64,000 nt of DNA from Pseudomonas deceptionensis (GTDB taxonomy: Bacteria > Pseudomonadota > Gammaproteobacteria > Pseudomonadales > Pseudomonadaceae), in assembly GCF_900106095.1 (NCBI RefSeq), contig NZ_FNUD01000002.1, forward strand, positions 3,121,501 through 3,185,500, written 5' to 3'. The notes below the pieces were generated by a model that was not told the origin of the DNA, did not search any database, and saw only the letters and a program-made list of their open reading frames with translations. Below, one piece after another: positions 11,298 through 30,428 of this stretch (position 1 is its first letter; the number at the start of each line of letters is the position of its first letter). The position numbers were made by a program, and so were the translations under genes.

Positions 11298-11308
11298 GGA
11301 GGCGTTCA

Positions 11309-11812: not shown

Positions 11813-11818
11813 GGAACA

Positions 11819-12239: not shown

Positions 12240-12274
12240 GCTGCTTCCTCCGCTACACGTAACAGGGCACTCCT

Positions 12275-14899
12275 ATGGCAAACAACATGTCGCTCGGCTT
12301 GGTGATCGGCGGAGCGGTGAGCTCGACCGTGGGCGTTGCATTTAAGGATGTGGAAAGCCGCGTCAAAAAGCTCAGTGAGCAAGGCAAGAAAGCCCGGGTA
12401 CTGCAGAGCACGATTGGCGAAACCATGCGCCTGCGTGACGAGTGGCGAAAGGCTCACGCTGCAGGTGAGAAGGGTGCGCAAGCGCTGCTGAACCGGCTGG
12501 AGCGAAACCTCGGCGTACTGCGCAAGGAAGGCGTGGAAGTCGGCCGGCTGGCTAAGGAATACGACCGCCTGGGTCGTGCCGGGCGTAGCGCTGAACTGAA
12601 GGTTAAAGGCCATAACCAAATCAGTCAGGGCAAACAGCAAGTCAAAGCCGGCGTAGCCCAGGGCGTTGTTGCGACAGGGTTGGTGGCCGCGACAAGTAAG
12701 GTCAGCGCCGATTATCAGGCGATCATCCGTGACATTGCGATCAAGGCCGGCGTGGCCCGATCGGCGCAAGAGGCCGATATGTCGCGCAGCATCATCGCGA
12801 CGTCGAACGATATCGGCATGGGCCGCAACGAAGTGGCCGATGTGGTTAACCAGTTGGTCGGCGCAGGGATGGACCTTAAGCAGGCGATGGAGTTTGCGCC
12901 GGTGGCGGCCAAGTTCGTCGTGGGGCAGGGCTCGTCTGGTGTCGACACCGCCAAGATGATCCAAGCACTGCAGAGTAACGCCAATATCACCGACCCTAAG
13001 GTGCTGGAAAAGGCGCTGGAGGCGGTGGCATTCCAAGGGCAGGCGGGCAGCTTTGAAGCCAGCGACATGGCGCGCTGGTTCCCGCAACTGCTCGCAAGCA
13101 TGCAGAAACAGGGCATCACCGGTATGGACGCGGTGACGCAGCTGGGGGCAATGCTCCAAGTTCAGATGAAAACTGCCGGCACCTCCGACGAAGCGGCCAA
13201 CAACCTCAAAAACTGGATGGAGAAGATCGGTTCCGGTGAAGTGGTGGAAGCCTATTCAAAGGCGGGCATTGATTACCAGGGCTCGCTCAACACCGGCATT
13301 CAGGGTGGCATGTCCACGCTGGAGGCCAGTTTTGGGTTGGCCAAGCGGTACATCGAAGCCACCGACCCGAAGAAAGCCGCGAAGATGGCCGAGGCCACGG
13401 CCCAGATCAGTAAAGAGGCGAACCCGGAAAAAGCCAAGGCCATGCTCAGCAGTCTGGAGCAGGCCCTGCGCACCGGCGATATCTTTGCCGACATGCAGGT
13501 CAAGTCAGCACTGACGGCTTATGTGCAGAACAAGGCGCTGTACGAGCAGCTTAAAAACGAGGCGTCCGGAGCCTCTGGGATCTTGGACAAAAACCTGTCG
13601 GAACGGCGCGACACCTCGTCGCAAAAATGGGCCGAGACGATTCAGGCGGGCAACGACGCCATGCGCAGCGTGGGGGATGCCATTCAGCCCGTTACGGATG
13701 CGGTGGCCACCGGACTGACTACGGTGGTCAAGGGCATCACCAAACTGTCGGACGAGTCGCCCAAGCTGGTGATGGGGCTGACGGCGCTGGCCACCGGGGC
13801 CAGTGTGGTGACCAGTTTGTTGGGTGCGCTCAAGATCGGCCGGGGACTGGTCAATCTGGCCCGGGGCGGACTGGGTGGCGGTGGTGCAGATCGTGCCGGT
13901 GTGCAGTCGGTCTTTGTCACCAACGCCAAGGACGCACTGGGTGACGGGGGCGACGACGAGAAGGGGGATGCGGTCAAGTCGTTGGTCTCGGCAGGCCTCA
14001 ATGCACTGATTGGCCGCAAGGACGAGGATAAGGAAGGTGAGGGCGCCTCCGATACCAAACTGGACCCGGTCGAAACCGGCCTGAAGCTGCTCGATGTCAT
14101 CCGGGAGGCGAAGGGCGGAGACGATGAGGCCGGGCCTGACCACACGCAGAAGGTCTTTGTGGTCAACGCCCGGGAAATCGGTGGAGGTGGTTCGGGTGGC
14201 GGTCGCGGTGGGCGTCGATCGCGGCGCCGGGGTCCGCCACGCCCGCCGGTACCGCTACCCGTACCGCCGCGTTTGGGCGCTCGATTGATGAACGCCGTTG
14301 GCACTATCAGCAAGGCGGGGAAAGCCATCCCTGCCGGCTCGCTATTTGAGGCGGGCATCAAGGCCTTTGACACCTACACCACAGCCAAGACCGCCCAAGA
14401 GAAAGCCGAAGGCTACGGCGGTGCTGCCGGTGGCTTGGCCGGGTCGGTGGCGGGTGCAGCGGCCGGTGCGGCGATCGGCTCCGTTGTTCCGATCATTGGC
14501 ACGGCGATGGGCGGGCTGGTTGGCGCGTTCCTGGGGGGCATGGGTGGCGACACCGTGGGCGGTATGTTCGGCAAAACGTCGTTTGCCAAGTCGCTGTTTG
14601 GCAGCGATGCAGAGCCGGGTGATGTGGTGCGTTCGATGAGCGCGCAGTCCGGTCGGTCACAAGCCCCGTCGCCTTTGGTGTTCAAGTCTGAATCCAAGCC
14701 TGCGCCGATCGATCAGCAGTTCACTTTTGCCCCGCATATGCCCATTACGGTGCAGGGTGATGTGAAAGACCCCGACGAGCTGATGCGCAAGCTGCAACCC
14801 ATGATGCAGGGCCATTTGAATGACTTCGCCCGGCAGATGGAAGACAACGCCCGCCTGGCCAATGACCGCACGTTATACGACGCCCCACACATCGGGTAA
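12275..14899 (+). CDS. Tail tape measure protein T
   Basis: 874 residues. It begins with SLGLVIGGAVSSTVGVAFKD and a charged coiled-coil region (about 20-120), followed by the PhageMin_Tail domain (PF10145; QAIIRDIAIKAGVARSAQEA, VVNQLVGAGMDLKQAMEFAP, GITGMDAVTQLGAMLQVQMK). Hydrophobic segments lie near residues 490-520 and 720-770, the latter glycine/alanine rich. A basic and proline-rich linker with GGRRSRRRGPPRPP lies near 645-660. Tape measure proteins set tail length and reach the host membrane. Position after E/E' is as in P2. Confidence 0.9.
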   Translation: MANNMSLGLVIGGAVSSTVGVAFKDVESRVKKLSEQGKKARVLQSTIGETMRLRDEWRKAHAAGEKGAQALLNRLERNLGVLRKEGVEVGRLAKEYDRLGRAGRSAELKVKGHNQISQGKQQVKAGVAQGVVATGLVAATSKVSADYQAIIRDIAIKAGVARSAQEADMSRSIIATSNDIGMGRNEVADVVNQLVGAGMDLKQAMEFAPVAAKFVVGQGSSGVDTAKMIQALQSNANITDPKVLEKALEAVAFQGQAGSFEASDMARWFPQLLASMQKQGITGMDAVTQLGAMLQVQMKTAGTSDEAANNLKNWMEKIGSGEVVEAYSKAGIDYQGSLNTGIQGGMSTLEASFGLAKRYIEATDPKKAAKMAEATAQISKEANPEKAKAMLSSLEQALRTGDIFADMQVKSALTAYVQNKALYEQLKNEASGASGILDKNLSERRDTSSQKWAETIQAGNDAMRSVGDAIQPVTDAVATGLTTVVKGITKLSDESPKLVMGLTALATGASVVTSLLGALKIGRGLVNLARGGLGGGGADRAGVQSVFVTNAKDALGDGGDDEKGDAVKSLVSAGLNALIGRKDEDKEGEGASDTKLDPVETGLKLLDVIREAKGGDDEAGPDHTQKVFVVNAREIGGGGSGGGRGGRRSRRRGPPRPPVPLPVPPRLGARLMNAVGTISKAGKAIPAGSLFEAGIKAFDTYTTAKTAQEKAEGYGGAAGGLAGSVAGAAAGAAIGSVVPIIGTAMGGLVGAFLGGMGGDTVGGMFGKTSFAKSLFGSDAEPGDVVRSMSAQSGRSQAPSPLVFKSESKPAPIDQQFTFAPHMPITVQGDVKDPDELMRKLQPMMQGHLNDFARQMEDNARLANDRTLYDAPHIG

Positions 14900-14908
14900 G
14901 GAGGTGAT

Positions 14909-15754
14909 ATGCCCTATATGGAGCAGATGCAAAGCACGGTCAGTTACTTGGCCACGGCCGGTGAGGCAGGGCGGCGAAGTCTTGACGGGATGATGGGGCC
15001 GGTAAACGGGGCAATCAGTGAAATGTCCGGTGCGGCCTCGGAATTGGAGACCCTGCCGGTCATTGGTCCAATGGTTGGGGAAAAGCTGCAGCGGGTTATG
15101 CGCGGTATCAGTGCCGCACAGGCCAAAGTGGGCGCGGTGGTTGCGGTCTACAACCAAGCCACCCGCGCCGCCTCGCAGATCGAGCAGCGGCTGGAGGTTC
15201 TGGGTGATCAGGCAACCCGGGCAAAGAGCGCGATCAACCAGATTGCCGGCAAGATCAATCCTGCGTTGGGCAACATCCTGCCGACCAGCATCTTTGCCAC
15301 CGACACCACCCCGGCGGTGGAAGCGGTGAAGCCGTTCCCCCACTTGCTGATCCTGCAGCCGCACAAGCACGAAGCACCGCCGTATTACTTCAATCTGGAT
15401 ACGGCAGCCTTTGAGGAACTGAACCGGCAGAGCGGTTTCCGCTGGGCCTCGCAAGAGCGCTTGATGCGTCGGCCGGCACAGCAGGCGGTGGGTATGGGTG
15501 ACGACAAAGTCACCCTCAAGGGTTCTATCTTTCCCGGGCACCGGGGCGGCCTCAAGCAACTGGACACCCTGCGCAGCATCGGCGGGATGTTGGTGCCGCT
15601 GGGCCTGACCACGGGCTATGGCTACGTCCTGGGAGATTGGTGCCTGACCTCGATCACCGAGGATCAGAGCGCGTTCCTGCAGGGCGGAATTCCCCGCAAG
15701 CAGGGCTTTAGTTTGGAGTTCGTCCGATATGGCGAGGACCTGCAGAACGCTTGA
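14909..15754 (+). CDS. Tail protein U with an N-terminal extension
   Basis: 281 residues with a very strong GGAGG ribosome binding site at 14900-14904. The C-terminal 150 residues (FPHLLILQPHKHEAPPYYFN, GFRWASQERLMRRPAQQAVG, GSIFPGHRGGLKQLDTLRSI, GYVLGDWCLTSITEDQSAFL) are P2 gpU (PF06995), the tail terminator. P2 gpU is about 160 residues; the first 125 here are an extra helical region (GAASELETLPVIGPMVGEKL, AAQAKVGAVVAVYNQATRAA) that may be a fused or membrane-active module. It overlaps gene X by 26 bases. Confidence 0.87.
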   Translation: MPYMEQMQSTVSYLATAGEAGRRSLDGMMGPVNGAISEMSGAASELETLPVIGPMVGEKLQRVMRGISAAQAKVGAVVAVYNQATRAASQIEQRLEVLGDQATRAKSAINQIAGKINPALGNILPTSIFATDTTPAVEAVKPFPHLLILQPHKHEAPPYYFNLDTAAFEELNRQSGFRWASQERLMRRPAQQAVGMGDDKVTLKGSIFPGHRGGLKQLDTLRSIGGMLVPLGLTTGYGYVLGDWCLTSITEDQSAFLQGGIPRKQGFSLEFVRYGEDLQNA

Positions 15755-15938
15755 CGGCGACAAGCTCTACACCATTTGTCACAACGCCTATGGGCACCTC
15801 AACGGCAGCGTGGAGGCTGTGCTGGAAGCCAACCCCGGGTTGGCCGCCGAGCCTGAGCCGTATCGCGGCGGCTTGCTGATCGTGTTGCCGGACTTGGCGT
15901 TGGCCAGCGATGAGCAGGCCGTCCAGCTCTGGAGCTGA
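15729..15938 (+). CDS. Tail protein X (LysM-like)
   Basis: 69 residues: GDKLYTICHNAYGHLNGSVE, then VLEANPGLA and GGLLIVLPDL. This is the compact LysM-like fold of P2 gpX (PF05489), thought to bind peptidoglycan or the tail tube end during assembly. It overlaps gene U by 26 bases in another frame. The order U-X-D is that of P2. Confidence 0.87.
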   Translation: MARTCRTLDGDKLYTICHNAYGHLNGSVEAVLEANPGLAAEPEPYRGGLLIVLPDLALASDEQAVQLWS

Positions 15939-15967
15939 TCGTTACGCGTAACGCGACTTAAAACCTG

Positions 15968-15993
15968 AGCCCCGCCTTTGTGCGGGGCTTTTT
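15968..15993 (+). terminator. Hairpin terminator between genes X and D
   Basis: AGCCCCGC-ctttgt-GCGGGGCT followed by TTTT, 29 bases after the stop of gene X and directly upstream of TTGGAG, the ribosome binding site of gene D. Confidence 0.7.
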
Positions 15994-16006
15994 GTTGGAG
16001 CTGGAT

Positions 16007-17044
16007 ATGACGCCCGTTTTTCGCATCGTCGCCGATGGCAGCGACATCACCCGCATGATCAACGACCGGCTGTTGCTGCTGCGTACCTCGGACAAGCCCG
16101 GGATGGAATCGGACGAGTTTGAGTTGCGCATTGACGACCGCGACAGCGCCGTGACGTTGCCGTCTCGCGGTGCCTGCATCGAAATCTATCTGGGCTATGC
16201 CGGGTCGACCTTGTCCCGGGAGGGCCGCTATGTGGTCGATGAGGTCGAAGTCTCCGGCCCTCCGGACACGCTGGTGATACGTGGCAAGGCTAGCGATATG
16301 CGCGGCAGCGGCAAGACCACCCGTAGCGGTAGCTGGGAGGGCGATAGCTTGGCCACCATCGTCAGCACCGTGGCGCGGCGTAACGGCTGGGAGCCAGCCT
16401 GTACGGTGGCCACGATCGTGCCCCGGGCTGACCAGTTGGGGGAATCAGACTTCAATTTCATTACCCGGCTGGCCCGGCAGCACGACTGCACGGCCAAGGT
16501 CGCTGACGGCAAGTTGATCGTTATGCTGCGTCAGGGCGGTGTCACGGCCAGCGGCAAGACGCTGGGCGTCGTGACCATCAACAAAGCGGACGTCAGCCGC
16601 TACAGCTTTCGGCTGGGCGATCGCTCGACCCACAAGGCTGTGAGCACCAAGTACCAGGACAAAGCCACCGGCAAACTGGCGGTGGTGAATCTGAACAACG
16701 ACGACGCCCCGGACGGACTGCCGCCGGTGCATACAGATCGGCATATCCACCCGAACAAGACCGCCGCCGAACAGGCCGCCAAGGCGCGTTTGGCCGCATT
16801 CAACCGCTCGACTGCAGGTGTGCGACTGGAAATGCCCGGGCGCTCTGATCTGTTCGCAGAACGGATGATCAATGCACAGGGGTTCAAGGATGGGCTCAAT
16901 GGCGAGTACCTGGTGGAATCCCGGGAACAGGTATTCACCCAGTCTGGCTGGTCGACGACGATCGAGTGCAACGCCGGCAAGAAGGGAAAGGCCAAGGTCA
17001 AAGGCAAGAAGCCCGAGAAAACCCTGAAAATCGTTCAACTCTAA
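16007..17044 (+). CDS. Late control/baseplate hub protein D
   Basis: 345 residues from ATG 16007, preferred over a start at 15980 that lies inside the terminator hairpin. It begins MTPVFRIVADGSDITRMIND and includes DEFELRIDDRD, GRYVVDEVEVSGPPDTLVIR and the Zn-less hub fold typical of P2 gpD (PF05954). The end is lysine-rich (GKKGKAKVKGKKPEKTL). In P2 this protein forms the baseplate hub below the tube. It closes the tail operon; a terminator follows. Confidence 0.9.
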   Translation: MTPVFRIVADGSDITRMINDRLLLLRTSDKPGMESDEFELRIDDRDSAVTLPSRGACIEIYLGYAGSTLSREGRYVVDEVEVSGPPDTLVIRGKASDMRGSGKTTRSGSWEGDSLATIVSTVARRNGWEPACTVATIVPRADQLGESDFNFITRLARQHDCTAKVADGKLIVMLRQGGVTASGKTLGVVTINKADVSRYSFRLGDRSTHKAVSTKYQDKATGKLAVVNLNNDDAPDGLPPVHTDRHIHPNKTAAEQAAKARLAAFNRSTAGVRLEMPGRSDLFAERMINAQGFKDGLNGEYLVESREQVFTQSGWSTTIECNAGKKGKAKVKGKKPEKTLKIVQL

Positions 17045-17064
17045 CCCGAAAATCCCCACCCCCG

Positions 17065-17086
17065 GCCCGCCTTGTGCGGGCTTTTT
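17065..17086 (+). terminator. Hairpin terminator after gene D
   Basis: GCCCGC-cttgt-GCGGGC followed by TTTTT, placed just upstream of the endolysin ribosome binding site. Confidence 0.68.
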
Positions 17087-17100
17087 CGTAAGGGCAACTT

Positions 17101-17634
17101 ATGTCGATTACCCAGCAACAACTCCTGCAGATTCTCCCCAACGCCGGCCCAGTTGCCGGCGTTTTTGTGCCGGTACTCAACGCCGCGATGGTGCATTACC
17201 AGATCATTGGCCCCAAGCGCGTGGCCGCGTTTATCGCGCAGATTGGGCACGAGTCCGGCCAGCTCAAATACGTTAAGGAAATCTGGGGCCCAACGGTTGC
17301 CCAAGCCAAATACGAAGGCCGCAAAGATCTGGGCAACACCGTGGCCGGCGACGGCTCCAAGTACCGGGGGCGTGGCCTGATCCAGATCACCGGCCGGGCC
17401 AACTACATGGCCTGCGGCGAAGGGCTGGGCCTTGACCTGATCAAACAGCCCGAGCTGCTGGAAAAGCCAAAGCACGCCTGCATGTCGGCAGCATGGTTCT
17501 GGGCGACCAAGGGCCTGAGCACCTTGGCTGACGCAGGCCAGTTCGACAAGATCACCCATCGCATCAACGGTGGCCAGAATGGCGCGGCCGATCGGCAGGC
17601 ACTCTATGCCCGGGCGCTCAAGGTGTTGGCGTGA
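17101..17634 (+). CDS. Endolysin, glycoside hydrolase family 19
   Basis: 177 residues. The GH19 pattern is seen in FIAQIGHESGQLKYVKEIWG (catalytic Glu in GHES), GDGSKYRGRGLIQITGRANY (conserved YRGRG-x-IQITG) and SAAWFWATKGLSTLADAGQF with THRINGG near the end. It cleaves peptidoglycan glycan strands during lysis. There is no signal peptide, so a holin is expected, but none is encoded between the tail genes and here. It overlaps the Rz-like gene by four bases. Confidence 0.92.
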   Translation: MSITQQQLLQILPNAGPVAGVFVPVLNAAMVHYQIIGPKRVAAFIAQIGHESGQLKYVKEIWGPTVAQAKYEGRKDLGNTVAGDGSKYRGRGLIQITGRANYMACGEGLGLDLIKQPELLEKPKHACMSAAWFWATKGLSTLADAGQFDKITHRINGGQNGAADRQALYARALKVLA

Positions 17635-18152
17635 ACCTCGATGCGTTGAAGTGGGGCGGGGCATTGCTGCTAACGCTTGGCCTTATGGGTGGCAGTGCAT
17701 GGGCTGCATGGGCGTGGCAGGCCAACGCCTACGGCCAGCAACTGGCCAAACAAGAAACCTCCCATCAAACAACCCTGACCCATCTGGCCAATGCCAACTC
17801 AGCGCTAATCATCGCGGAGCAGGGCAAGCGTCTCGCCCTGGAGCAGTTGCTGGCAGCCAGCGACCAAGCCCATTACCGAGCCCTTACTGATGAAAAAACC
17901 AAACAAATACATCTGCGTGATCGCCTTGCTACTGCTGACCTGCGGCTGTCAGCCTTACTCGCCGCAACGGATACAAACCGTTGCAGTGGAGTGCCAGCCG
18001 CCGCCGGCCCCGGCAGTGTGGTTCATGGAGCTCAGAGAGCCCAACTTGACCGAGCGCATGCTCAACGAATTATCGGCATCGTCGGCGAAGGTGATGAGGG
18101 ACTGATCGCCTTGGCAGCATGTCAGGAGTATGTACGGGGAGTAGCGGGTTAG
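17631..18152 (+). CDS. Rz-like inner-membrane spanin (i-spanin)
   Basis: 173 residues. It starts with one N-terminal membrane segment (LLLTLGLMGGSAWAAWAW) followed by a long periplasmic helix rich in Q, A, E and L (QQLAKQETSHQTTLTHLANA), the layout of Rz. Together with Rz1 it fuses inner and outer membranes in the last step of lysis. A complete Rz1 gene is nested inside it in the +1 frame. The first bases overlap the endolysin stop. The C-terminal 60 residues are coded over the Rz1 gene. Confidence 0.82.
   Translation: MNLDALKWGGALLLTLGLMGGSAWAAWAWQANAYGQQLAKQETSHQTTLTHLANANSALIIAEQGKRLALEQLLAASDQAHYRALTDEKTKQIHLRDRLATADLRLSALLAATDTNRCSGVPAAAGPGSVVHGAQRAQLDRAHAQRIIGIVGEGDEGLIALAACQEYVRGVAG
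17864..17952 (+). repeat. Left copy of an imperfect direct repeat over the Rz/Rz1 start
   Basis: About 89 bases covering the end of Rz helix coding and the first 21 codons of Rz1. A copy of 92 bases lies at 33200-33291 in the same orientation, 15.3 kb away, differing by a few substitutions and extra A bases. The two copies bracket the accessory island. Confidence 0.85.
17890..18105 (+). CDS. Rz1-like outer-membrane lipoprotein spanin (o-spanin)
   Basis: 71 residues fully nested in the Rz gene in the +1 frame. It has a lysine start, a hydrophobic core and a lipobox (VIALLLLTCGC), then a proline-bearing mature part (VECQPPPAPAVWF). This is the classical Rz1 organisation: an outer-membrane lipoprotein that pairs with Rz. 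The first 63 bases recur at 33226-33291 as a truncated second copy. Confidence 0.85.
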   Translation: MKKPNKYICVIALLLLTCGCQPYSPQRIQTVAVECQPPPAPAVWFMELREPNLTERMLNELSASSAKVMRD

Positions 18153-18159
18153 TTTACAG

Positions 18160-18410
18160 CGCCGCAATGAATCTATCTGCTCGAGCAGAACACGAATGAT
18201 AGAAATCCCATAGGCGGTAATCCGGAAGTAGATCATGTGCTGCTCAACACAACGGCGGCGATAGTCAGGTCGAATGCTCTTACAGTCTGGAGCTTATTTC
18301 GGCTGCTCTGCCAGCACTGCAAAAGCAATTGTCAGCATGTCGATATACCGACGGGCCTGCTTGCGTATCGCCAGATCAGATCGGTTGCCGGAGTAAGACG
18401 ATACTCAGCA
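18160..18410 (-). pseudogene. Decayed ParE-type toxin gene
   Basis: Read on the minus strand, this stretch contains EYRLTPATDLI, then in another frame ARRYIDMLTIAFAVLAEQPK, an in-frame TAA (18294-18296), then APDCKSIRPDYRRRCVEQHM and IYFRITAYGISIIRVL. Together these follow ParE toxins of the RelE/ParE superfamily from end to end. One frameshift, one stop and loss of the proper end make it inactive. It lies downstream of a ParD remnant on the same strand, the normal order parD-parE. Confidence 0.75.
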
Positions 18411-18474
18411 ATGTTTGCTCAATATGCTCAGTTTTAACGCTTCAGGGGCGAAGGCACGATGATAGCCTGCTGCC

Positions 18475-18597
18475 TTAAATTTCGGCGTTGCGCTCTTGCT
18501 CTCGGCGGATTAAATCTCGTATGTACTCGCTGTCATTGGTGTAGTGCCCGGCTTCAATCTGCGCCTTGATCCAGCCATCTTGCTAGTCAGTTAAGGC
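18475..18597 (-). pseudogene. Decayed ParD-type antitoxin gene
   Basis: On the minus strand: LTD-stop-QDGWIKAQIEAGHYTNDSEY followed by IRDLIRREQERNAEI and a stop at 18475-18477. This is the conserved C-terminal two thirds of ParD antitoxins (ribbon-helix-helix family). The in-frame TAG at 18583-18585 and the missing N-terminus show decay. About 65 bases separate it from the ParE remnant. Confidence 0.75.
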
Positions 18598-18695
18598 TCC
18601 TGCTCTGAGCAAAGCTAGGCGCGCTTAATTTGGTTTATACATAGAGCGAATCCCTGTAATCTTTGCCTTCCACAAAATCTCCCCTTCGGTAACCT

Positions 18696-21600
18696 ATGAA
18701 TCTCCCTGAAAAAACTATGATTGCTTTCTCTACTCGATGGGGCAGCCAGTTCGGGGGGATCAATAGTTTTAATCAGGACTTGATCGGTGCGTTTGCATCG
18801 GCTTTTTATCAGCGAATAGTAACGGTTTGCGTGGTTTTATATGCAACCGATGTTGAGATAAAAAGTGCTCTTGCTGAGCAAGTGCTTCTTGTCTCACTTG
18901 GTCGTGAGAGTGAGCATACGTTTTCGCCTGATTTGGAAGCTGCTATCTGGCAAGCGTTGCAAGTACATAAAGTCCCCACGTTAATTGATCAAACAGTGTG
19001 GTTGGGACATGACCGTATAACGGGTGCAATCGCATGCGCTGCTAGCAAAGCGCGCGGTGGAAGATCCGCCTTGATTCATCATATGAGCTACAGTCGATAC
19101 GAGGCATTTGCTGAGAGTAGCGCTATTGCTAAAAAGAAAGAAGTTGAGCAAAAACAGCTATTCCTAAGTGCAGACGTAGTCTTGGCAGTAGGCCCACTTT
19201 TAGGCGATGCACTCGCAGATATACGGGATGCTTTGAGCGTGCCCGTTTTAATTCCTGGTTTGCCGGACATCATCGTTAAAACTGCACCAAGAAATTTTAA
19301 AGGTTTTATCAGTGGTAGACTTAGCGAAGATGCGAAGCGAATAAAACAGGCGCATCTAGGTGTTGCAGCTTTTGCAAGTGCGATTCGTCAAGCTGATGAA
19401 AATATGGGGCTGCCTGATGTATTGCGTGGTGAAAATGAACCTATGCTTACGCTGCGCGGTGTAGATTTTGAAAAAAGCTATTGTGGGCAACATGCGGAAG
19501 CAGAAATAGCTTTAATTAAGTTCGCTGAAGAATATGCAGGACGCGCTTTTAATTTACATGCTTTGCCGTTCACGACAGATAGACAGGAGTTATTTGATGA
19601 TCTTCGGAGTGCTAGTGTAGCGATGATGCCTTCCTGGCATGAAGGTTTTGGATTGGTTGCGTGGGAAGCTATCGCGGCAGGGGTACCGCTAATCATCAGT
19701 AACAAGAGTGGCGCATTCAGGATGCTTAAGGAGTTCGAGGATGGCGTTTACCTGTCATGTGTCATGCATATAGATGTGGCTGGTAGTAGTAGCGAGCCAT
19801 ATTTTCTCCCAAAAGATGTTAGTAAGTTGGCTCAGGCTATAATTAGTGTTGCCAAGAACTCACCAGAGGCTCGTCAAAAAGCAGCTCGGTTACGTGAGGT
19901 TATGAGCAGCAAATTCACTTGGGCAAATTGTGCTAGACAGGTGCTCAACGCGCTCGGCTGGACGATTGAGATAGAGCAGGAAGTCTTACCTAGCACCACT
20001 GATTCACATATCCCTTCGCCCTTGCTTCCAAAACAAAATATTAATTTTCTCGAGCTTCCTAGCCCGTATTGGCGACCCGGCAGTGGATTGAGTGACAGCC
20101 GATTATTACGTGCAGAAGAAGCGATCGTGCCATTTGATCCCAAGGCAGAACCTTTCTTGGAATCGCAACTTGAATGGGCAACGTCTGTCCAACATCCCAT
20201 ATGTGTCAGACTTGTAACTGGGGCGGGTGGGTGCGGTAAAACTAGGCTTGCTCTAGAACTTTGTAGACGAATGATAGGTAAAGGGTGGCAAGCTGGATTT
20301 TTGACCGGAGATTGCACACCTAGCCAGATTTCGCAGCCTATCAATCTACTCACTCTGTCAGGTCAGCCATGCTGTATTGTAATTGACTACGCTGAAACTC
20401 GTCAGCCTCTACTGCTGACACTGCTTAAGTTGTTGCTAGCTAGTAAGGATGCACTAAAGGTCCGAATATTGTTGCTTGCACGTGACGGTGGCGAATGGTG
20501 GGGGGCATTATCATCGAAAGAGCCACTCTGTGAATCTCTACTAGATGGTCCTGCCAGCAGTGGTCCGTTTCCCATGCCGCAGTTGCATGATAATGAGCTT
20601 GAGCGCCAAAAAGCTTACCGTCTTGCTATACATACTTTTTCCCGTGTTTTGCAAATCAATCCGCCTGAGCATCATCCGGATCTTAAGGGAGCGCACTTTT
20701 CTCTCCCTCTTTATATTCAAATGGCTGCATTAATGGCCCTTCGTGGAGAGCGGCCAAAGTCTGCAGAAGCACTTCCCCGAGCTCTTGTTAATCATGAGAA
20801 ACGTTACTGGAGTAGGGCTTTAGCAGAATTAAGTCGCGAAGGTAGTAATCTTGACCGACAAGCGGGCTATTTGATGACGCTGGCCACTTTGAGTAATGGT
20901 ATCGCTACCGTACGGTCACTAGAGGACGTCTGGAAAAAAATAGGCGAGGATAAAGTATCCCTAAAGTACCTATTTAGAACTTTATCCCCGCTTTATCCCG
21001 ATCGTCAGGGATTGCAAGGCTTGCGTCCAGACTTAATCGGCGAGGCTTTAGTAGCGCAGACACTACTTGGTTTCAATGGTCCAGAGTTACTCAGCATATT
21101 GCTCAACTTGGGAGGAAGTCGCGTACGACAGTCGTGCTTAACCGTGCTTGCTAGATTATTGCGTAACCGAACAGATGTTTCAGCATTGGTTGAAGACGCG
21201 CTGGTAAATAACTTTCTAAGCTGTGCAGACGACCTCGTTTCAGTATGCGTAGAAACACCGAGTCCACTGCCGCAAATTATCGAGCGTGCATTTTTAAGAT
21301 TGCCAATTGCGCGTCAGTGGCAAGTGGCTGGGATTCTTAGTTCTCGCTTTAGATATGGGCTTTTTCCCTTGGCTGGGCTGGCTGTACTCGTGGCTCAAAG
21401 TATCGTAACTAAGCGAGCAGAGCAAAGGAGCAAAAAGCCAACGCTGGATGAAGCAAGAATGCATGCGGAGGCCCTGGCAGCTTTAGCTCTTGCTTTAATG
21501 CGTCAAGGCAATAATATGGATGCGTTACAAGCATCCAAGCAATGTTTAGATATTTCCCGCGAACTTGCGTTAATAAAGCCTCATGTATTCAAAGTGGATC

Positions 21601-22544
21601 TAGCTACTGCACTCAATAATCATGCTAATCGCCTAGCTGCACTGGGTCTAACAGAAGATGCATTAGCTATTAATGAGCAGTCTTTAAGTGTGTACCAAGA
21701 GTTAATGCTGTCTGATCCTGAGGGGGTTAAACATGAAATGGCAACCGCTCTAGGTAATTTTGCTAATTTCTCGGACGATCTTGGTTACTCGGAAGAGGCG
21801 CTGAAGGCAGCGAAGAAGGCATTAGCTATTTATCAAGAATTTCCAGAGCCAAAGTCAAAAAAACTAATGTATGACATGGCAGTATCACTAAGTAATCAAG
21901 CGACTTACTTGGTAGGTATGGGGCTTGCTGAAGATGCAGTGAAAGTTTCTAGGCAAGGATTAAAGATTGCCTTTGATTTGGAAAAAAATAAGCCTGAAAG
22001 ATATAGGCCTATGCTTGCTAGCTCTATAGCTAACCACATTGTACATTTGGCTGCATATGGCGAATTTGAAGAGGCGGCGTCTAAAGCAAATGATGTTTTT
22101 ACTATATTTATGGATCTTTCAAAGTATAAGCTTGAGCGATATAAGTTTGAGCAGGAAAATGCTCGAATAATGGTTTTTTTCTGGAGTTGGTTAGCCTCTG
22201 GCATACTAACAGCTCCACTGTTAAATGATGGCGTACCTGAGATAGGTGATGAGCGAAAACAGCGTAGTTTAAACTTTAGTCATTTTTTTGTAGTGGCTTG
22301 TTTGACCGGAAGTCAAGAAGCAGTTCAATGTGCTTTGGTTCAATGGGGAACATTAGATGTTTCTCAGAGGCAGTCTCATAAAGGTGCATTTTTTATAATG
22401 GCTGCAGCTTCCGAACAAAATAATAGCCCCAGTGAATCAGCTGTTAATTGGCGCGAAGAGTTTAAATGTTACCGAGATCAGTGCCAGGGGCGACTTCCTG
22501 CTTGGTTAGTTGAAGTTGCTCGAAGAAGAGGTCTGGTGTTATAA
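18696..22544 (+). CDS. GT4 glycosyltransferase / STAND ATPase / TPR fusion protein
   Basis: 1282 residues with three parts. Residues 1-440 are a GT-B glycosyltransferase of GT4 type: a Gly-rich loop WGSQFGGINSFNQDL near residue 15 and the EX7E pair E316/E324 in SWHEGFGLVAWEAIAAGVP. Residues about 475-800 are a STAND-type P-loop ATPase: Walker A GAGGCGKT (509-516), Walker B IVIDYAET (D564) and a sensor-like RILLLARDGGEWW. Residues about 920-1140 are TPR repeats (ATALNNHANRLAALGLTEDA and similar). There is no signal peptide or membrane segment, so it should be cytosolic. The gene is AT-rich compared with the phage genes and stands alone in the island. An effector-switch-sensor immune role is inference; a surface-sugar modifying role is an alternative. 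Confidence 0.85.
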   Translation: MNLPEKTMIAFSTRWGSQFGGINSFNQDLIGAFASAFYQRIVTVCVVLYATDVEIKSALAEQVLLVSLGRESEHTFSPDLEAAIWQALQVHKVPTLIDQTVWLGHDRITGAIACAASKARGGRSALIHHMSYSRYEAFAESSAIAKKKEVEQKQLFLSADVVLAVGPLLGDALADIRDALSVPVLIPGLPDIIVKTAPRNFKGFISGRLSEDAKRIKQAHLGVAAFASAIRQADENMGLPDVLRGENEPMLTLRGVDFEKSYCGQHAEAEIALIKFAEEYAGRAFNLHALPFTTDRQELFDDLRSASVAMMPSWHEGFGLVAWEAIAAGVPLIISNKSGAFRMLKEFEDGVYLSCVMHIDVAGSSSEPYFLPKDVSKLAQAIISVAKNSPEARQKAARLREVMSSKFTWANCARQVLNALGWTIEIEQEVLPSTTDSHIPSPLLPKQNINFLELPSPYWRPGSGLSDSRLLRAEEAIVPFDPKAEPFLESQLEWATSVQHPICVRLVTGAGGCGKTRLALELCRRMIGKGWQAGFLTGDCTPSQISQPINLLTLSGQPCCIVIDYAETRQPLLLTLLKLLLASKDALKVRILLLARDGGEWWGALSSKEPLCESLLDGPASSGPFPMPQLHDNELERQKAYRLAIHTFSRVLQINPPEHHPDLKGAHFSLPLYIQMAALMALRGERPKSAEALPRALVNHEKRYWSRALAELSREGSNLDRQAGYLMTLATLSNGIATVRSLEDVWKKIGEDKVSLKYLFRTLSPLYPDRQGLQGLRPDLIGEALVAQTLLGFNGPELLSILLNLGGSRVRQSCLTVLARLLRNRTDVSALVEDALVNNFLSCADDLVSVCVETPSPLPQIIERAFLRLPIARQWQVAGILSSRFRYGLFPLAGLAVLVAQSIVTKRAEQRSKKPTLDEARMHAEALAALALALMRQGNNMDALQASKQCLDISRELALIKPHVFKVDLATALNNHANRLAALGLTEDALAINEQSLSVYQELMLSDPEGVKHEMATALGNFANFSDDLGYSEEALKAAKKALAIYQEFPEPKSKKLMYDMAVSLSNQATYLVGMGLAEDAVKVSRQGLKIAFDLEKNKPERYRPMLASSIANHIVHLAAYGEFEEAASKANDVFTIFMDLSKYKLERYKFEQENARIMVFFWSWLASGILTAPLLNDGVPEIGDERKQRSLNFSHFFVVACLTGSQEAVQCALVQWGTLDVSQRQSHKGAFFIMAAASEQNNSPSESAVNWREEFKCYRDQCQGRLPAWLVEVARRRGLVL

Positions 22545-22609
22545 GGAAAATTAAGTTTTGTGTCTTCAGTTGCTGAGTGCTAGTCTAACTTGTAACGTTA
22601 GGCGATATG

Positions 22610-22775
22610 CTGTTTGAGATTAGCGCCAAAGATGCGGGGGATCGGAAGAGCGCTGTTTTTCACGTTGATTGGGCAGCGCATTGTAATCTTGCACGGTTTT
22701 ATCAAAAATGCGCAGCAAATCCCTGCGGTTGATTTGAGGTTCACCCGGGCTCGAATCAAGGATGTTACTTTATGA
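22610..22775 (+). pseudogene. Truncated HigB/Gp49-like toxin gene
   Basis: The plus-strand frame ending with TGA 22773-22775 reads GIGRALFFTLIGQRIVILHG, then FIKNAQQIPAVDL and RARIKDVTL. This is the C-terminal half of phage-derived Gp49-like/HigB toxins (PF05973), whose hallmark is VxLHGFxKK. The N-terminal half is absent or frame-shifted. Its stop overlaps the start of the antitoxin remnant (ATGA), as in intact higBA operons. Confidence 0.7.
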
Positions 22776-23083
22776 ATACGCTAAAAGCTGACGGATACTC
22801 ACCAGTAGTGTTCAACCCACAAGACTATGCAGCTTGACGCAGTCAGGAAGACGCTGCATTTGCGGATGCCTATTCTGGCCTGCAAGACGAAATTACCGCT
22901 CTAGACGTGCTGTTGTAAGCGCGGAAATTCACCTGGCTCACACAGGAACGCATGGCTGTCAAACCTAAGGCGCTGGCCCGAATTGAAATGTCGTTGGCCA
23001 GCCGCAAGCACTCACCCTCGCGGGAGACGCTACGTAAATATACGCAGGCGTGCGGTAAGTCGCTAACCATTGGTATTCAATGA
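22772..23083 (+). pseudogene. XRE-family antitoxin gene with two in-frame stops
   Basis: A single frame from ATG 22772 to TGA 23081-23083 (103 codons) interrupted by TGA at 22835 and TAA at 22916. The C-terminal part WLTQERMAVKPKALARIEMS, then LASRKHSPSRETLRKYTQAC is the helix-turn-helix of HigA-like antitoxins. It follows the toxin remnant with a four-base overlap, so this was a higBA-type module. Confidence 0.75.
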
Positions 23084-23523
23084 GGATTTATCGCGTGATT
23101 TTGGTTTGTGTTTGTTCGACAGGATGCTGGAGAGGAGGGGCATCGATTTCCGAAAAGTAGGGGCGCATATTACGTGCACTACAGAGTACAGCTTATGTCT
23201 GAGCTTAACTTAAGACTGCAGTACGTTTAATAATCCTGTGAAGTTGAATGCTCCCCTGATTGTTTAGATTTTAGATTACTCTTGTACTAAAAGATTCTCG
23301 GTAGATGAGTCTAGAGCGTAGTCGAGGTTTGAGTGGCGTTATATACGACAGATAGAACTGAAAAAAATCACTATGGGACAAGCTTGAGGTGAAAGACCTC
23401 CGGTTACTGATATTAATACGTTGAGTTAATTGAATTACGGACTCAAGCGTTTATTGTGTTGCGGCCCTGGACTGGGCCATGCACTATAATTGCACTCCCC
23501 TAATGGACTCGTAGGTTGTATTA
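23084..23523. other. Non-coding stretch between antitoxin remnant and HEPN gene
   Basis: AT-rich, no convincing open frame, RNA gene or terminator seen. It includes the upstream region of the HEPN-motif gene; no clear promoter could be fixed. Confidence 0.5.
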
Positions 23524-24834
23524 ATGGATATGCTTTCTAAAATACGAAGAGCAGCTGAAAACGATCTTGCCACATTGTTTCGGGCGAAGGAGTTGATGTC
23601 GGCGCCCAAAGCACTCAAGGAGTTAGAGCAGTGGGAGAGGTTGTATCGAGAGATCAAAACTCCCAGCGGCGGTGTGATTTACCTTTCTGATAAAGCGAAT
23701 GAAAGCTTTCTGCGCTTGGTGGAAACGGTAGGTGCGAATCTGCCAAGTCGTGACTTCGTTTTATCTGACGATATTTATCAGGCATGTAAAATGGAGTTAG
23801 GCCGTATGTACGAACAGGAGGCACCTCAAAAAACAATCGCCCCCTTTCTTACCTCACTGGAGGCTGCCATGCAGAGAAAAATAATGATGCATAGGTTCTA
23901 CACAACACTCGACGGATTAAGTCTCTGCGGTGTGGATCAGATGAGAATCGGTAGATTAAATGTGCAAACTCCTGACTTAGCAATACTTGAGAGTTGCGTT
24001 GCTAACGAAGCCATGATTAGTGGGACTTGGGCGCGAATGAAACGAGGCCTCTGGATTTCCGCTGAAATTACAGGGAGTAGGGGATATGCGGAGCGGCGTT
24101 TTTTCGAAGATGTAAAAGCTGCATGCGGTTTACTTGCAGTCTCGTTGACAACCGTTTTGGAGAGAGGTGGCTGCGCTGTCCGATTGACACCTAGTATGGA
24201 TGGTCGAGTCAGGCCTAGTGCGGCGACGTGGTTTTCAATTGAGACACTGTCAAATGAGCTATGCACGAGTTCATCTATGAAAGGATTTCAATCAATAACC
24301 CTCGATGCTAGTCATGTCGAGGGGTTACAGACATCCGAGTGGTTCTCTGAGTTAACTAAAATCATCCAAGGGGATAGTGATAGTGACGCAGAGCATGCAG
24401 TCCGACGCGCCATTTATTGGTTCTTCGATGCACAGGCTGATACATCTGCAGAGATGCAGTTGGTGAAATTTTGGAGCTGTATTGAATGCTTCTTTTCATT
24501 TGAAAATTCGGGGGAAACCACCAGCAAAATTAAACGTGGGTTGACCGCATTACTCACGCTTGGAGACTTCGGTTTTTCCAGCTTAGAGACTTGGAGGGAC
24601 CTTGAGAAAGAGATTGAGGCACTTTACGACTTACGCTCCAGAGCAGTGCACGACGCAAGGCATAGCCACGTATCAGATAGTGATATCACCAAAGTCAGCA
24701 AGTGGGCTGCCTGGGCCATCCTGGAAATTACTGGACTAATCTCGAAAGGCCACGACAGCAGAGTTAAGATCAAAGAACAGACGGATCGCCTTTCTGCAAT
24801 GCTTCAAAAGCAGGGCGACGGCGTGAAGCCCTAG
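23524..24834 (+). CDS. HEPN-motif protein (ApeA-like C-terminal domain)
   Basis: 436 residues. The C-terminal 120 residues carry a helical region with KFWSCIECFFSFENSGETTS, KIKRGLTALLTLG and EKEIEALYDLRSRAVHDARH. The R371-x4-H376 motif is the RX4-6H signature of HEPN ribonuclease-like domains, and the surrounding pattern suits the Apea-like HEPN group. The N-terminal 300 residues are unassigned and have one cluster of basic residues. HEPN proteins are common in phage defence and toxin systems. Here the gene stands alone, AT-rich, inside a prophage-associated island. RNase activity is inference; some family members only bind. Confidence 0.7.
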   Translation: MDMLSKIRRAAENDLATLFRAKELMSAPKALKELEQWERLYREIKTPSGGVIYLSDKANESFLRLVETVGANLPSRDFVLSDDIYQACKMELGRMYEQEAPQKTIAPFLTSLEAAMQRKIMMHRFYTTLDGLSLCGVDQMRIGRLNVQTPDLAILESCVANEAMISGTWARMKRGLWISAEITGSRGYAERRFFEDVKAACGLLAVSLTTVLERGGCAVRLTPSMDGRVRPSAATWFSIETLSNELCTSSSMKGFQSITLDASHVEGLQTSEWFSELTKIIQGDSDSDAEHAVRRAIYWFFDAQADTSAEMQLVKFWSCIECFFSFENSGETTSKIKRGLTALLTLGDFGFSSLETWRDLEKEIEALYDLRSRAVHDARHSHVSDSDITKVSKWAAWAILEITGLISKGHDSRVKIKEQTDRLSAMLQKQGDGVKP

Positions 24835-25189
24835 CTTGCTAGGGTGATGAACCTATGATTAGCTATTGGTCCTTTGCTGCCAGCCGTTTTACCTTTCGAT
24901 CTAGATCTACTAGCAGCCACTCGTTAGGAGATCCATGTCAAAAATAAGAGGCGCAAATGTGCTATTCAGTTCAGGTTTTGTATCATCGATAAGGCATTTG
25001 TCTATAGCAAAATACAGCGCTGACTTATTGATTCTTATAGGACAATAAGCTCAATTTCTGGCTTCATGACGATCTGGTAATTTCTCAATATTTCAATAGG
25101 TTACATGTGTTCAACGCTCAAATTTGACATAGTACTGGGCTTGCGTGCCGGGCAATCGCCGAGGATCGGTCCGGCACGATCAGTTCGAA
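24835..25189. other. Non-coding stretch
   Basis: No convincing gene, RNA or terminator. AT-rich. It lies between the HEPN gene and a convergently transcribed small membrane protein gene. Confidence 0.45.
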
Positions 25190-25585
25190 CTACCAGCGCA
25201 CGTCGACAATCACCTTCCCGGCGTTATCGATCTGGCATACCGTTTTGGTCACCTTGAAACCCTTCACTGCCATGTGACTGGTGTATGTAACCCTCCCTAC
25301 GATGTTCCCTTCAGGGTCTACGACAGAATATTCATCGATATCCTCTTCTCCCATGAAGCCTTTGGTGCGAGAGCTATCGAGCTTCAGCTCTTCACCTGGG
25401 TTGAGTTTAACTTTGTCCTTTAGCATGGATCGATCCTGATCGGGTTTATATGGCCCATAAAAGTACCACACTGCCCAGAAACTAAGTATGGTTAGAGCGG
25501 CCTCGAATTTGCGCAAAACCTCCACTTCCACTACAGGCCATTGCTTAACGTTTGCATAAGTACAGAAAAGAGGATGTATTCTCAC
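25190..25585 (-). CDS. Small single-pass membrane protein, unknown function
   Basis: Up to 131 residues; the first 22 may not be translated because a GGAGG-like site lies inside them, before LRKFEAALTI. One hydrophobic segment (AALTILSFWAVWYFYG) is followed by a soluble beta-type domain (KVKLNPGEELKLDSSRTKGF, EYSVVDPEGNIVGRVTYTSH, CQIDNAGKVIVDVRW). It would be anchored in the inner membrane with the domain outside. I do not recognise the family. Confidence 0.5.
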   Translation of the reverse strand: MRIHPLFCTYANVKQWPVVEVEVLRKFEAALTILSFWAVWYFYGPYKPDQDRSMLKDKVKLNPGEELKLDSSRTKGFMGEEDIDEYSVVDPEGNIVGRVTYTSHMAVKGFKVTKTVCQIDNAGKVIVDVRW

Positions 25586-25935
25586 CGTCTGAATGCACTA
25601 TTATCTTTTTGAAACAAATTTTTAGGTGGTTACAGTCTCCAGCATGGGGTGCTAGTGTCAGAGCCAGCGGTTCCTAGAGCCCAATATCCAAATTCGACCC
25701 ATAACATCACTTCGCGAAAGGCTGTTTTCGGCCAAAAGCAGCCCTTCGATGTGTCTAGACACTTCGGGGCGATTCAGTCTATTAGCCGAGTGACCGAGTT
25801 GTGAAGGTTGCCGGTATAGGATTTGAGTTCTTGCTTAAAGCGAACGAAAATGTCCGTAACTTGTGATTCAGCCCTCATCAGCTATCAACGTGTTCAAACG
25901 CACTATTCCAATGACGCGCGCCCTTAAGGATAAAT
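25586..25935. other. Intergenic stretch with a dispersed palindromic motif
   Basis: No gene seen. At 25716-25750 there is an inverted repeat around CTGTTTTCGGCCAAAAGCAG, related to other intergenic motifs at 28385, 29312, 30492 and 38110. Confidence 0.5.
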
Positions 25936-26862
25936 ATGGTTCATTACCAAGGTGCAGTTCTCTACCTCGATATCCTGGGGATCAGCAATCTGACCAAGAA
26001 AAAGGTCAAGCTCACCCCTGAAGACTATGAGGCTTGGGGAGTTAAGAAGATCTCAGAATGGAACGAGCACTTTTTTTGCGCAAAATTGCTGGTGGCCTTT
26101 CGTACCTGTTTAGAAGACGTAAAACAAAGATACGAAAATATCAAGGTTACCCAGCTATCTGATTGCGCATTTATTTGGTCGAAAGACGCAGCCGCAGTGG
26201 CCAAAGCGGCTCAAGATCTTATGTGGGCTCTAACAAGGGTTGGCGTTCTTTGTCGTGGCGGTATCGCTTACGGTGAAATTATTGAGCCAGACAGCGTCGC
26301 AAAATCTATAGGACAATTCGTGCTGGGCGAAGCAGTGACAATGGCGGTGGAGTGTGAGGGCAAAGGCAAAGGCTGCCGGCTATTCACCCATCCTGAGTTA
26401 GTCCTCAAATTGACTGGTACTGGTCCGCGGAGCGAAAGATTTGCAGAAGACTCTTTTGCGGAGCTCCTAAATCCATTGAGCGGAGAAAGTGCCGACGAAT
26501 TCCGCTGGTACCTCCAAAACTTGCCACAAAGCCCCGTAAAAAGCGCCCAAGCGAAGCACTTAGCCCTGCTTGAGCTCATGGCCGCACTAATGTGTTCCCC
26601 TCGATTCAATTGGAACGGTAGTTCTGAGGCAGGACGATTACAGTTGGCGTGCAGCATCACATGTTTGTCAAAGGCCGCCCACATGCTGTTACCTTCTTCG
26701 GATACGCTTTTCAACGTGAATCAGTTGATGGTCACCGAGATTCGTAGGACACAAGAACAGCAGAACAAGAGATTACAACTCTGGGGCAGTCAGGCGGCTA
26801 ATGCATTCGATCGCATAAAAGCTAGAGGGTCCAAGCTCCGCGGTGCGCTTCAATCCGAGTGA
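25936..26862 (+). CDS. Class III nucleotidyl cyclase-like protein
   Basis: 308 residues, AGGA five bases before ATG 25936. Residues 1-140 follow the class III cyclase plan: AVLYLDILGISN (D12), VTQLSDCAFIWSKD (D76), RGGIAYGEI (R107) and QFVLGEAVTMAVECE (131-141). The two aspartates are at the spacing expected of metal-binding residues. The C-terminal half is helical with no recognised domain. Related stand-alone cyclase-like proteins occur in Pseudomonas and in Pycsar defence (PycC). Whether this one makes a cyclic nucleotide is not shown; substrate-defining residues cannot be judged by eye. Confidence 0.6.
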   Translation: MVHYQGAVLYLDILGISNLTKKKVKLTPEDYEAWGVKKISEWNEHFFCAKLLVAFRTCLEDVKQRYENIKVTQLSDCAFIWSKDAAAVAKAAQDLMWALTRVGVLCRGGIAYGEIIEPDSVAKSIGQFVLGEAVTMAVECEGKGKGCRLFTHPELVLKLTGTGPRSERFAEDSFAELLNPLSGESADEFRWYLQNLPQSPVKSAQAKHLALLELMAALMCSPRFNWNGSSEAGRLQLACSITCLSKAAHMLLPSSDTLFNVNQLMVTEIRRTQEQQNKRLQLWGSQAANAFDRIKARGSKLRGALQSE

Positions 26863-27194
26863 TACAACTAACGCCGTTACCGCCTCTAATTCCAAGCTGC
26901 GGGGGCACTGCAATGCTCGCCTCTGTGAGGGGTTCTACGCTGTCATGATTTGGGCGCAGCAGTAAGTCGCCTCAGCCGGCTAATGCCCGTCATAAAGGCT
27001 TTATAAATTAGCTCAACCCCAACACCTCACGTAACCTCCGCAGAGACTCCGCATCCAGCGTTGGAAAGAACTCTCAAGGTGACCCAAATGTGGCCGACAC
27101 AAAAGGATTGAGATGTGCAGGTCTGTCATTGCAAATGATCATGACGCAACAGCTCAATGAAACCCCGAATAGGCACGACAAGGAGCGTTACCCA

Positions 27195-28193
27195 ATGCTA
27201 GACCTGATCTACATTGTCGAAGAACCAATTATCTGCGACCCAGCACAAGGCAGCGGCAACAGCTCCTCAGTAAATTTCACTATGCCAGACCGTGACGAAC
27301 ATCAAGGAGCTATAACAGGTGCCGCGCTTGCAAGCATTGCAGGCGCGGCAGTACTTGGCAGAGGTGCGAGTCTATTCGCTGCACCACTCCTACCGACGGC
27401 TTTAATGGCCTCCGCATTACTTGGGGTTCCAAGTTTGTTGACTGGTTTCACAAAGGATCGCGCCTTAAAAAGTGATGACCTGGATGATGCTAAGCTTGAG
27501 GAGGCTCGATTACTCACCTTGTACGTACAACACCATTCGCTGTCTCGCAGCCAAGCAAATGAGGAAGGCTACCGTTTTCAGCCCGGGCACCCAGTCGTTG
27601 GCAAGACATACCGTAAACACCCATTGTCCGACTACTCGACCCCGGATAACGGCAACCTTTACATCCCAAGCGACAGCTACGACGCAATCCTGCTGGAGGA
27701 GCGTGAATCGGAGTTGATCAAGCTTTTGGTTCATCTCGGCGCGACCAAAATCAGCATCACCAAAAAAGCCTCGGACAAAAACCGTAGCGTCGTCACTGCC
27801 GAAGCTTCGGTGCAAGTCGGCCCTATGGGTGGCGGCGACGTCGGTTACACCGGTAAAACCGAACGCGATACCGATACGCTGAATACTCGTGAATTCTCGT
27901 TAGCCGGCCGGCCTTGGAAAGCAGATAGCAAAGTAGATCGTGAAAGTTTTTTTTGGCTCTCCTATGAGCCATCCTGGAAAGCAGTCGTGTTCGCCCGCGA
28001 AGTGGGTGGTTGCCTGACAGCGTCCCTTGAAATTAAAGAAAGTACCTCGTTCTCGACAGACAAAAACTTCGAGCTGTCAGTCAAAGTGAAGCTGGTTGAG
28101 GCTGGCGCGCAGGCTGGACTTTCAAATCTGGAATCCGAAGAAAAAACATACTTCGTCAGAGCGGAGTTCGCCCCGGTAAGTGACCGGGCCTAA
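27195..28193 (+). CDS. Predicted membrane-associated protein, unknown function
   Basis: 332 residues from ATG 27195, chosen because AGGAG at 27181-27185 is well spaced; the frame is open to a GTG at 27090. A hydrophobic stretch (AALASIAGAAVLGRGASLFA, then PLLPTALMASALLGVPSLL) at about residues 45-85 could form two membrane passes. The rest is soluble and beta-rich (VVTAEASVQVGPMGGGDVGY, FFWLSYEPSWKAVVFAREVG). It lies downstream of the cyclase-like gene on the same strand with a gap of about 330 bases. Family unknown. Confidence 0.6.
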   Translation: MLDLIYIVEEPIICDPAQGSGNSSSVNFTMPDRDEHQGAITGAALASIAGAAVLGRGASLFAAPLLPTALMASALLGVPSLLTGFTKDRALKSDDLDDAKLEEARLLTLYVQHHSLSRSQANEEGYRFQPGHPVVGKTYRKHPLSDYSTPDNGNLYIPSDSYDAILLEERESELIKLLVHLGATKISITKKASDKNRSVVTAEASVQVGPMGGGDVGYTGKTERDTDTLNTREFSLAGRPWKADSKVDRESFFWLSYEPSWKAVVFAREVGGCLTASLEIKESTSFSTDKNFELSVKVKLVEAGAQAGLSNLESEEKTYFVRAEFAPVSDRA

Positions 28194-29242: not shown

Positions 29243-29414
29243 AGTGAGAAAACATTCTTAGGCTCATCCGCGCGGAGGGGGGAGTTGCCCCAGCTTTTTC
29301 AGACACGATATGACCGCTGTTGGCCGATATCGGGCCTTTAACGGCGGCAAAAAACGGTCAATAAGTAGCTACTTTTGGCCGTTCAAGTCGACCAAACGGA
29401 GTTGAGGTTGGGGG

Positions 29415-30377: not shown

Positions 30378-30428
30378 CAAAGCAGGTCCCTGTGGGCGAC
30401 AGCAATCATAGAGTTGGACAACCTTCAC

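Follow-up and report, generated by a model that had tools for sequence, protein, structure and literature searches.

The window analysed here is a stretch of 64,000 nucleotides from Pseudomonas deceptionensis (G000:C2:3121501-3185500 of a 5.1 Mb genome) that carries part of a prophage integrated at the dusA gene. A single gene behind the prophage lysis genes (18696-22544, plus strand), an open reading frame (ORF) with an ATG start, encodes a protein of 1282 amino acids. Its N-terminal glycosyltransferase family 4 (GT4) head is joined to a P-loop NTPase of the type found in signal transduction ATPases with numerous domains (STAND) and to a region of tetratricopeptide repeats (TPRs). A preliminary description had read the gene as one protein of these three parts, with an EX7E motif at E316 and E324 and NTPase residues K515 and D564. 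Pfam matches, predicted models, Foldseek searches and conservation among homologues support that division, and the named residues are correctly placed and strongly conserved. Homologues numbered 327 at E<=1e-5 among 8000 candidates scored, and the conservation counts given below use the 120 of these that were listed. The closest full-length homologues are 68% identical to the query among the matches listed. Here we describe the protein, its relatives and its genomic position, and weigh the possibility that it is an immune sensor-effector carried as prophage cargo.

The head (residues 10-415; 18723-19940, plus) belongs to the GT4-conflict family PF20706, whose profile it covers from position 2 to 384 of 385 with a score of 258 bits (E 1.9e-76; curated cut-off 26). 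A predicted model of residues 1-440 has a predicted local distance difference test score (pLDDT) of 87.3 and a predicted template modelling score (pTM) of 0.86. Submitted to Foldseek, it retrieved GT4-type enzymes including MshA, GlgM and BshA (best E 1.4e-15), and the glycosyltransferase fold on which the preliminary description depended is therefore supported. The head shares with these enzymes the fold and the EX7E active site, whereas they are stand-alone metabolic enzymes with 13-18% identity to it in structural alignments. The EX7E motif (19641-19667, plus), which aligns with that of MshA-type enzymes, has E316 in 120 of 120 homologues and E324 in 119, with aspartate in the remaining one. 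R208 and K217 (19317-19346, plus), which by analogy with GT4 enzymes would act at the donor phosphate, are each kept in 119 of 120 with one gap, and H129 in 117 with three gaps. Modelling thus indicates a GT-B fold of the retaining GT4 type with an active site that looks intact.

The NTPase region (about residues 460-779; 20073-21032, plus) is defined by a sub-threshold match to nSTAND_NTPase5 (PF25199), by the family alignment and by Foldseek. Walker A and Walker B, expected of a P-loop NTPase of the STAND superfamily, are both seen in the family alignment and its conservation. Walker A reads GAGGCGKT (residues 509-516; 20220-20243, plus), with G511, G512, G514, K515 and T516 each present in 119 of 120 homologues and one gap, and the Walker B aspartate D564, within the motif DYAETR (20385-20402, plus), is invariant (120/120). 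R596 in the motif LLLAR (20481-20483, plus) is likewise invariant (120/120) and is a candidate sensor or finger arginine. The invariant pair P671-L672 in SLPLYIQMAAL resembles the helical-arm GxP motif of STAND proteins, but the glycine is absent. Because the PF25199 score lies under the curated cut-off, the predicted NTPase is called nSTAND5-like and is not filed as a member, although PF25199 is listed for two homologues that are 67-68% identical to the query (P0002 and P0003) in a precomputed domain list. The TPR region (about residues 905-1160; 21408-22175, plus) is recognized by a TPR_12 match at residues 925-1002 (E 2.4e-8) and by TPR_10 towards the C-terminus. Its length varies among the 120 homologues from 116 to 531 residues, with 255 in the query. 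Catalytic and switch parts that hardly change, next to a repeat array of differing length, would be expected of a protein built from effector, switch and sensor.

A predicted model of residues 436-1282 (pLDDT 87.0, pTM 0.76) has 6mfv, a crystal structure of a STAND-TPR protein, as its first Foldseek match (E 7.3e-8); at rank 8 stands the SIR2-STAND filament of EfAvs5 (9jap, E 2.2e-5). The likeness to 6mfv spans a STAND-TPR protein, but with template modelling (TM) scores of 0.25/0.32 the domain arrangement differs, and the title of that structure names no glycosyltransferase. Avs5 likewise places an N-terminal enzyme on a STAND module, but the enzyme is a SIR2 effector, the TM-score is 0.18, and no PADLOC Avs model matches the query at E<=0.01. 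The best PADLOC match of the query is a weak PtuA1 (E 0.0065), and its Pfam list up to E 1 holds no NACHT domain; the protein is therefore not filed as an Avs or bNACHT member, though it may work like them. In VIA-align the aligned rows correspond to the TPR portion of the model, so that the NTPase is hardly probed by that comparison, and a sequence-only search of the PDB with the NTPase profile returned generic P-loop proteins only.

Relatives of the protein have exchanged both of its ends. On the Streptomyces plasmid NZ_CP108158.1, a protein (L098:3266-6745) carries a homologous NTPase core (31% identity, with GxGGxGKTRLA, DYAETR and LLLAR) and TPRs under a Trypsin_2 head (32.0 bits; cut-off 27.6). 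It differs in being actinobacterial, in having a protease head rather than GT4, and in the Trypco2 gene just upstream; its NTPase, too, lies under the nSTAND5 cut-off (29.6 versus 34 bits). Conversely, the GT4 head occurs on other chassis: on nSTAND1 with an FGE-sulfatase domain (L042), on a NACHT-like module that scores above the NACHT cut-off in one protein (L067) and at 26.5 bits against a cut-off of 26.7 in another (L040), and, in L041, after an AAA_16 match that stays under its threshold. With 59% identity to the head of the window protein, the L040 head groups within a clade of 13 rows whose other members are STAND5 proteins (99/99 in a tree of 39 rows chosen, like a second of 30 rows, from the loci); therefore head or chassis has been exchanged after the family arose. 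Two-way swaps of this kind are how interchangeable effectors on immune switches would look. Two further proteins combine a GT4-conflict domain with no STAND module, one having a radical SAM match above its cut-off and a B12-binding match below (L046:9848-14188), the other both matches below (L047:9974-13816). Other loci in Pseudomonas, Paraburkholderia and Rhizobium, with proteins of about 1300-1450 residues, have a GT4 head without STAND5 and may be of the same kind.

The distribution of the protein is sporadic. A match at E<=1e-40 was found in 6 of 398 genomes of the same genus, and in only three (the genome itself, G007 and G096) does it reach past the GT4 head; at E<=1e-60, 2 of 369 genomes in the class have a match, the genome itself included. 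A scan of genome contigs, keyed to two conserved GT4 peptides and thus blind to STAND-TPR proteins without GT4, gave 61 loci. In 31 of these (L007-L037, some cut by contig ends) GT4 is joined to this STAND type, and 28 have GT4 without it, several among L039-L067 being cut by contig ends so that a missing STAND module cannot always be taken at face value; L038, at a contig end, and L044, whose gene ORF picking did not call, were left unclassed. In the 30-row tree the STAND-carrying copies come from Pseudomonadota, Thermodesulfobacteriota, Nitrospirota and Acidobacteriota. There, the copies from Shewanella and Oceanospirillaceae cluster with one from Rhodocyclaceae (100/97), and the window copy clusters with its P. 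rubra and P. donghuensis counterparts (94/92). A match was found in 51 of 72,556 plasmid records, in no case covering 80% of the query, and the 20 listed of these 51 align either with the GT4 head or with the NTPase and TPRs.

To the left of the window lies dusA on the minus strand (L078:934-1953; PF01207, E 9.7e-87), and beside its 5' end stands a tyrosine integrase gene (L078:2056-3180; phrog_1, E 1.4e-42); the left flank also holds genes for a repressor, a CII-like activator, a primase, a terminase and a portal protein. The window carries on with head, baseplate and tail genes, an endolysin gene (17101-17634, plus; phrog_181, E 2.3e-73) and an Rz-like spanin gene (17631-18152, plus; phrog_2466, E 3.1e-45), which is the last backbone phage gene ahead of the cargo. 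An attR-like copy of the dusA 5' end (30748-30774, plus) of 27 bp is 81% identical to the attL copy (L078:1864-1890; G000:C2:3103364-3103390). The repeat is weak alone (BLAST E 0.58), but is credible because each copy stands just ahead of a related integrase gene. The attachment-site (att) pattern occurred in 0 of 100 shuffles, but it was written from both copies and the count is not independent; a looser pattern matched 5 times, once without mismatch, where 2.0 matches were expected. No exact repeat of at least 15 bp was found at the prophage ends, and repeats of 10 bp were discarded when the identification of dusA showed them to lie near its wrong end. A tyrosine integrase at the dusA 5' end and imperfect direct repeats at both ends are the marks of dusA-associated integrase elements (Farrugia et al. 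2015, PMC4482086). The present prophage has both, whereas the account of those elements in that paper concerns the vehicle and not a GT4-STAND cargo.

Beyond attR, a second integrase gene of the dusA type is represented by a decayed 5' portion (30880-31209, plus), which is recognized by its similarity to relatives and bears an in-frame stop. Window positions 30748-31208 resemble the integrase-start region of five relatives (G003, G015, G021, G023 and G024), and a 56-base match at 33249-33304 falls on the spanin-end region of G021. The interval 30748-33304 is likely the remnant of a second dusA-type element in tandem after the first prophage, which, as predicted from attL to attR, is about 48.9 kb long and encloses the GT4-STAND gene after its lysis genes. 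The preliminary description had placed an AT-rich gene, lying alone, beside a phage lysis cassette in a mobile context, and each of these points held up: the G+C fraction per kb is 0.442-0.496 over 18-23 kb versus 0.575-0.633 over 0-18 kb, endolysin and spanin lie upstream, the gene is inside the att interval, and no close partner gene follows it, the next ORF of 80 residues or more beginning 980 bases downstream, at 23524. Because the relative G021 shares the phage backbone up to window position 18126 and the next 4.1 kb fetched from it has no match to the cargo of the window, the stretch after the spanin gene looks like a variable cargo site. An empty site, in which the genes of 33-64 kb adjoin the left flank, was not seen in the relatives searched, and megablast of window positions 1-18600 against 50,697 phage records gave no match.

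The genes around homologues were tallied at 24 loci, where 117 of 122 ORFs of at least 100 residues reaching within 3.5 kb were scanned; the five left out were L013:15740-16333, L020:3821-9682, L024:3-419, L026:5425-8997 and L040:36-350. HATPase_c_4 occurs in 6 of the 117 and SLFN_AlbA_2 in 5, and no further Pfam family in more than two. In four Geobacterales loci (L013:14209-15618, L017:13915-15324, L019:13927-15336 and L024:4735-6144) a gene for a 469-residue AlbA_2/HATPase_c_4 protein shares 4 bases with the end of the GT4-STAND gene, and at L014 two related genes of this type lie upstream. The 469-residue protein is a possible second component; the ORFs scanned downstream of the window gene include no such gene. 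RmlD, GDP_Man_Dehyd and Epimerase are found in two of the neighbours each. In the neighbours scanned, homologues are thus not fixed beside polysaccharide loci, whereas such fixation would have spoken against the preliminary description, and a surface-polysaccharide locus was rejected as an explanation, the neighbours of homologues being varied. Near the P. rubra homologue lies a gene with NEL and ToxA_N-like matches (L026:5425-9000).

The idea of a GT4-STAND effector is less new than the preliminary description supposed. Kaur et al. (2021, PMC8195603) predicted, in their treatment of bacterial GT4 domains, that those fused to STAND NTPases are counter-invader effectors, which would act by glycosylation, either altering the molecules of the invader or blocking interactions, and an earlier paper (PMC7159879) lists glycosyltransferases among effectors of related systems. 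The present protein shares with the fusions of Kaur et al. a PF20706 head on a STAND-type NTPase and a predicted effector role. The fusions in the relevant section of that paper, however, have AP-ATPase, NACHT, SWACOS or nSTAND2 modules, often with GT4 at the C-terminus, whereas here an N-terminal GT4 sits on an nSTAND5-like NTPase with TPRs and is borne by a prophage. The protein is apparently a further member of this predicted class, for which experiments are apparently lacking in the open-licence literature of PubMed Central (PMC). To that prediction we add residue conservation across a full-length family, the exchange of modules in both directions with an nSTAND5-like TPR chassis, and evidence that the gene is prophage cargo.

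We consider it probable that this single gene, the cargo of a dusA-integrated prophage, by itself encodes an immune sensor-effector of the STAND type, in which an infection-triggered switch leads to glycosyl transfer that stops phage growth. The GT4-conflict score, the residue conservation, the GT-B fold, the Foldseek matches to STAND proteins and the variation in TPR length argue for a defence role, as do the swapping, the sporadic distribution, the position as prophage cargo and the independent prediction for such fusions in PMC8195603. Of the earlier suggestion that a sugar transferase serves as an immune effector, the effector part is supported because heads and chassis are swapped among relatives, while immunity and a sugar-transfer mechanism stay predictions. 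The TPR superhelix would bind a trigger that arises when another phage infects the cell, and ATP binding would then drive oligomerization, as it does in other STAND proteins. The clustered GT4 heads would become active and move a sugar from a nucleotide sugar to a putative intracellular acceptor, either a host or a phage molecule; alternatively, they might simply drain the nucleotide sugar. Phage growth would stop, the infected cell probably being arrested or killed, and the lysogen, hence the resident prophage, would be protected. That the STAND switch senses infection and turns on a glycosyltransferase whose product or nucleotide-sugar use aborts phage growth, as a prophage weapon against rivals, is the more specific proposal, and we offer it tentatively.

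Several observations weigh against a defence role of this kind. The PF25199 match of the NTPase (residues 500-602; E 8e-5) reaches 22.9 bits, under the cut-off of 34, and the low TM-scores to 6mfv and 9jap (0.18-0.32) indicate that at most parts of the arrangement agree. The 24 loci have no overall conserved partner gene. The preliminary description had suggested looking for homologues that recur in defence islands, and no consistent signal of this was seen: PADLOC matched the SIR2-Argonaute-associated model in 4 of the 117 neighbours, pAgo in 2 and others in 1 each, including RT_UG29, MzaA, DolB, mad3, mad8 and PDC families, and these scattered matches were counted without a control set and support no claim of enrichment. 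A tblastn search of the 50,697 phage records gave no match at E<=1e-5 and a scan of viral contigs one distant relative; carriage by phages therefore looks unusual for the family. The copies in G007 (G007:C13:28617-31708) and P. donghuensis (L029:9986-13944) are split into two reading frames and look broken. Finally, no experiment on any GT4-STAND protein was found in the open-licence PMC literature.

A ligand-responsive metabolic STAND protein, with no relation to phages, would use its TPRs to sense a small molecule or peptide, as MalT does with maltotriose and Rap proteins do with peptides, and would gate glycosyl transfer in sugar or glycan metabolism. We regard this as unlikely, given that the gene is sporadically present with no fixed metabolic locus, that a trypsin protease replaces GT4 on the same chassis, and that the gene is prophage cargo here. 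A conflict protein not aimed at phages, acting for instance against plasmids or in bacterial competition, is rather improbable. STAND systems against plasmids exist, and on a Robbsia andropogonis plasmid a GT4 protein (L101:4995-6899) lies near VgrG and DUF4123 genes, the GT4 and VgrG genes being adjacent annotated genes 2.2 kb apart. GT4 domains also occur in secreted toxins according to the GT4 section of PMC8195603, but the STAND-TPR architecture is of the intracellular sensor type and the gene sits in a prophage. Glycosyltransferase morons are common in prophages, and the head matches the phrog_2170 glycosyltransferase of the moron category (E 4.6e-10, residues 288-420); an enzyme for superinfection exclusion or lysogenic conversion, acting on a surface polysaccharide that serves as phage receptor, is nevertheless quite improbable, since the head is fused to a STAND-TPR module, scores far higher against the GT4-conflict family, has RmlD and GDP_Man_Dehyd genes beside so few of its homologues, and is followed by ORFs (23524-35168) that gave no flippase, polymerase or sugar-synthesis match, though most of them matched nothing.

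STAND sensors can stop phages through NAD loss, nucleases or proteases. If the predicted immune sensor-effector role is correct, sugar transfer or nucleotide-sugar depletion would join this list. The gene is a clean, intact, single-gene and prophage-borne case with near-invariant active sites and module-exchanging relatives, and the glycosyltransferase-effector proposal of Kaur et al. is therefore open to direct test.

The remainder of the cargo stretch holds several other genes. Positions 22600-23100 are apparently decayed, one fragment resembling by eye the C-terminus of a helix-turn-helix antitoxin. The 436-residue orphan at 23524-24834 (plus) had no family match in the scans and no significant PDB match; an R..RAxxxH stretch in its C-terminal part looks HEPN RNase-like by eye. 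A 308-residue orphan at 25936-26862 (plus) looks nucleotide-cyclase-like by eye, and searches with it gave no match. The DUF2971 protein at 29415-30428 (minus), in the same cargo stretch, matches the PADLOC candidate family PDC-S31 (E 3.3e-45). Further along the window, an HNH protein at 32040-32846 (minus) has a type IV restriction-like match to mREase_IV (E 1.5e-19), and a protein with NYN and LOTUS/OST-HTH domains is encoded outside the prophage at 41431-42240 (minus).

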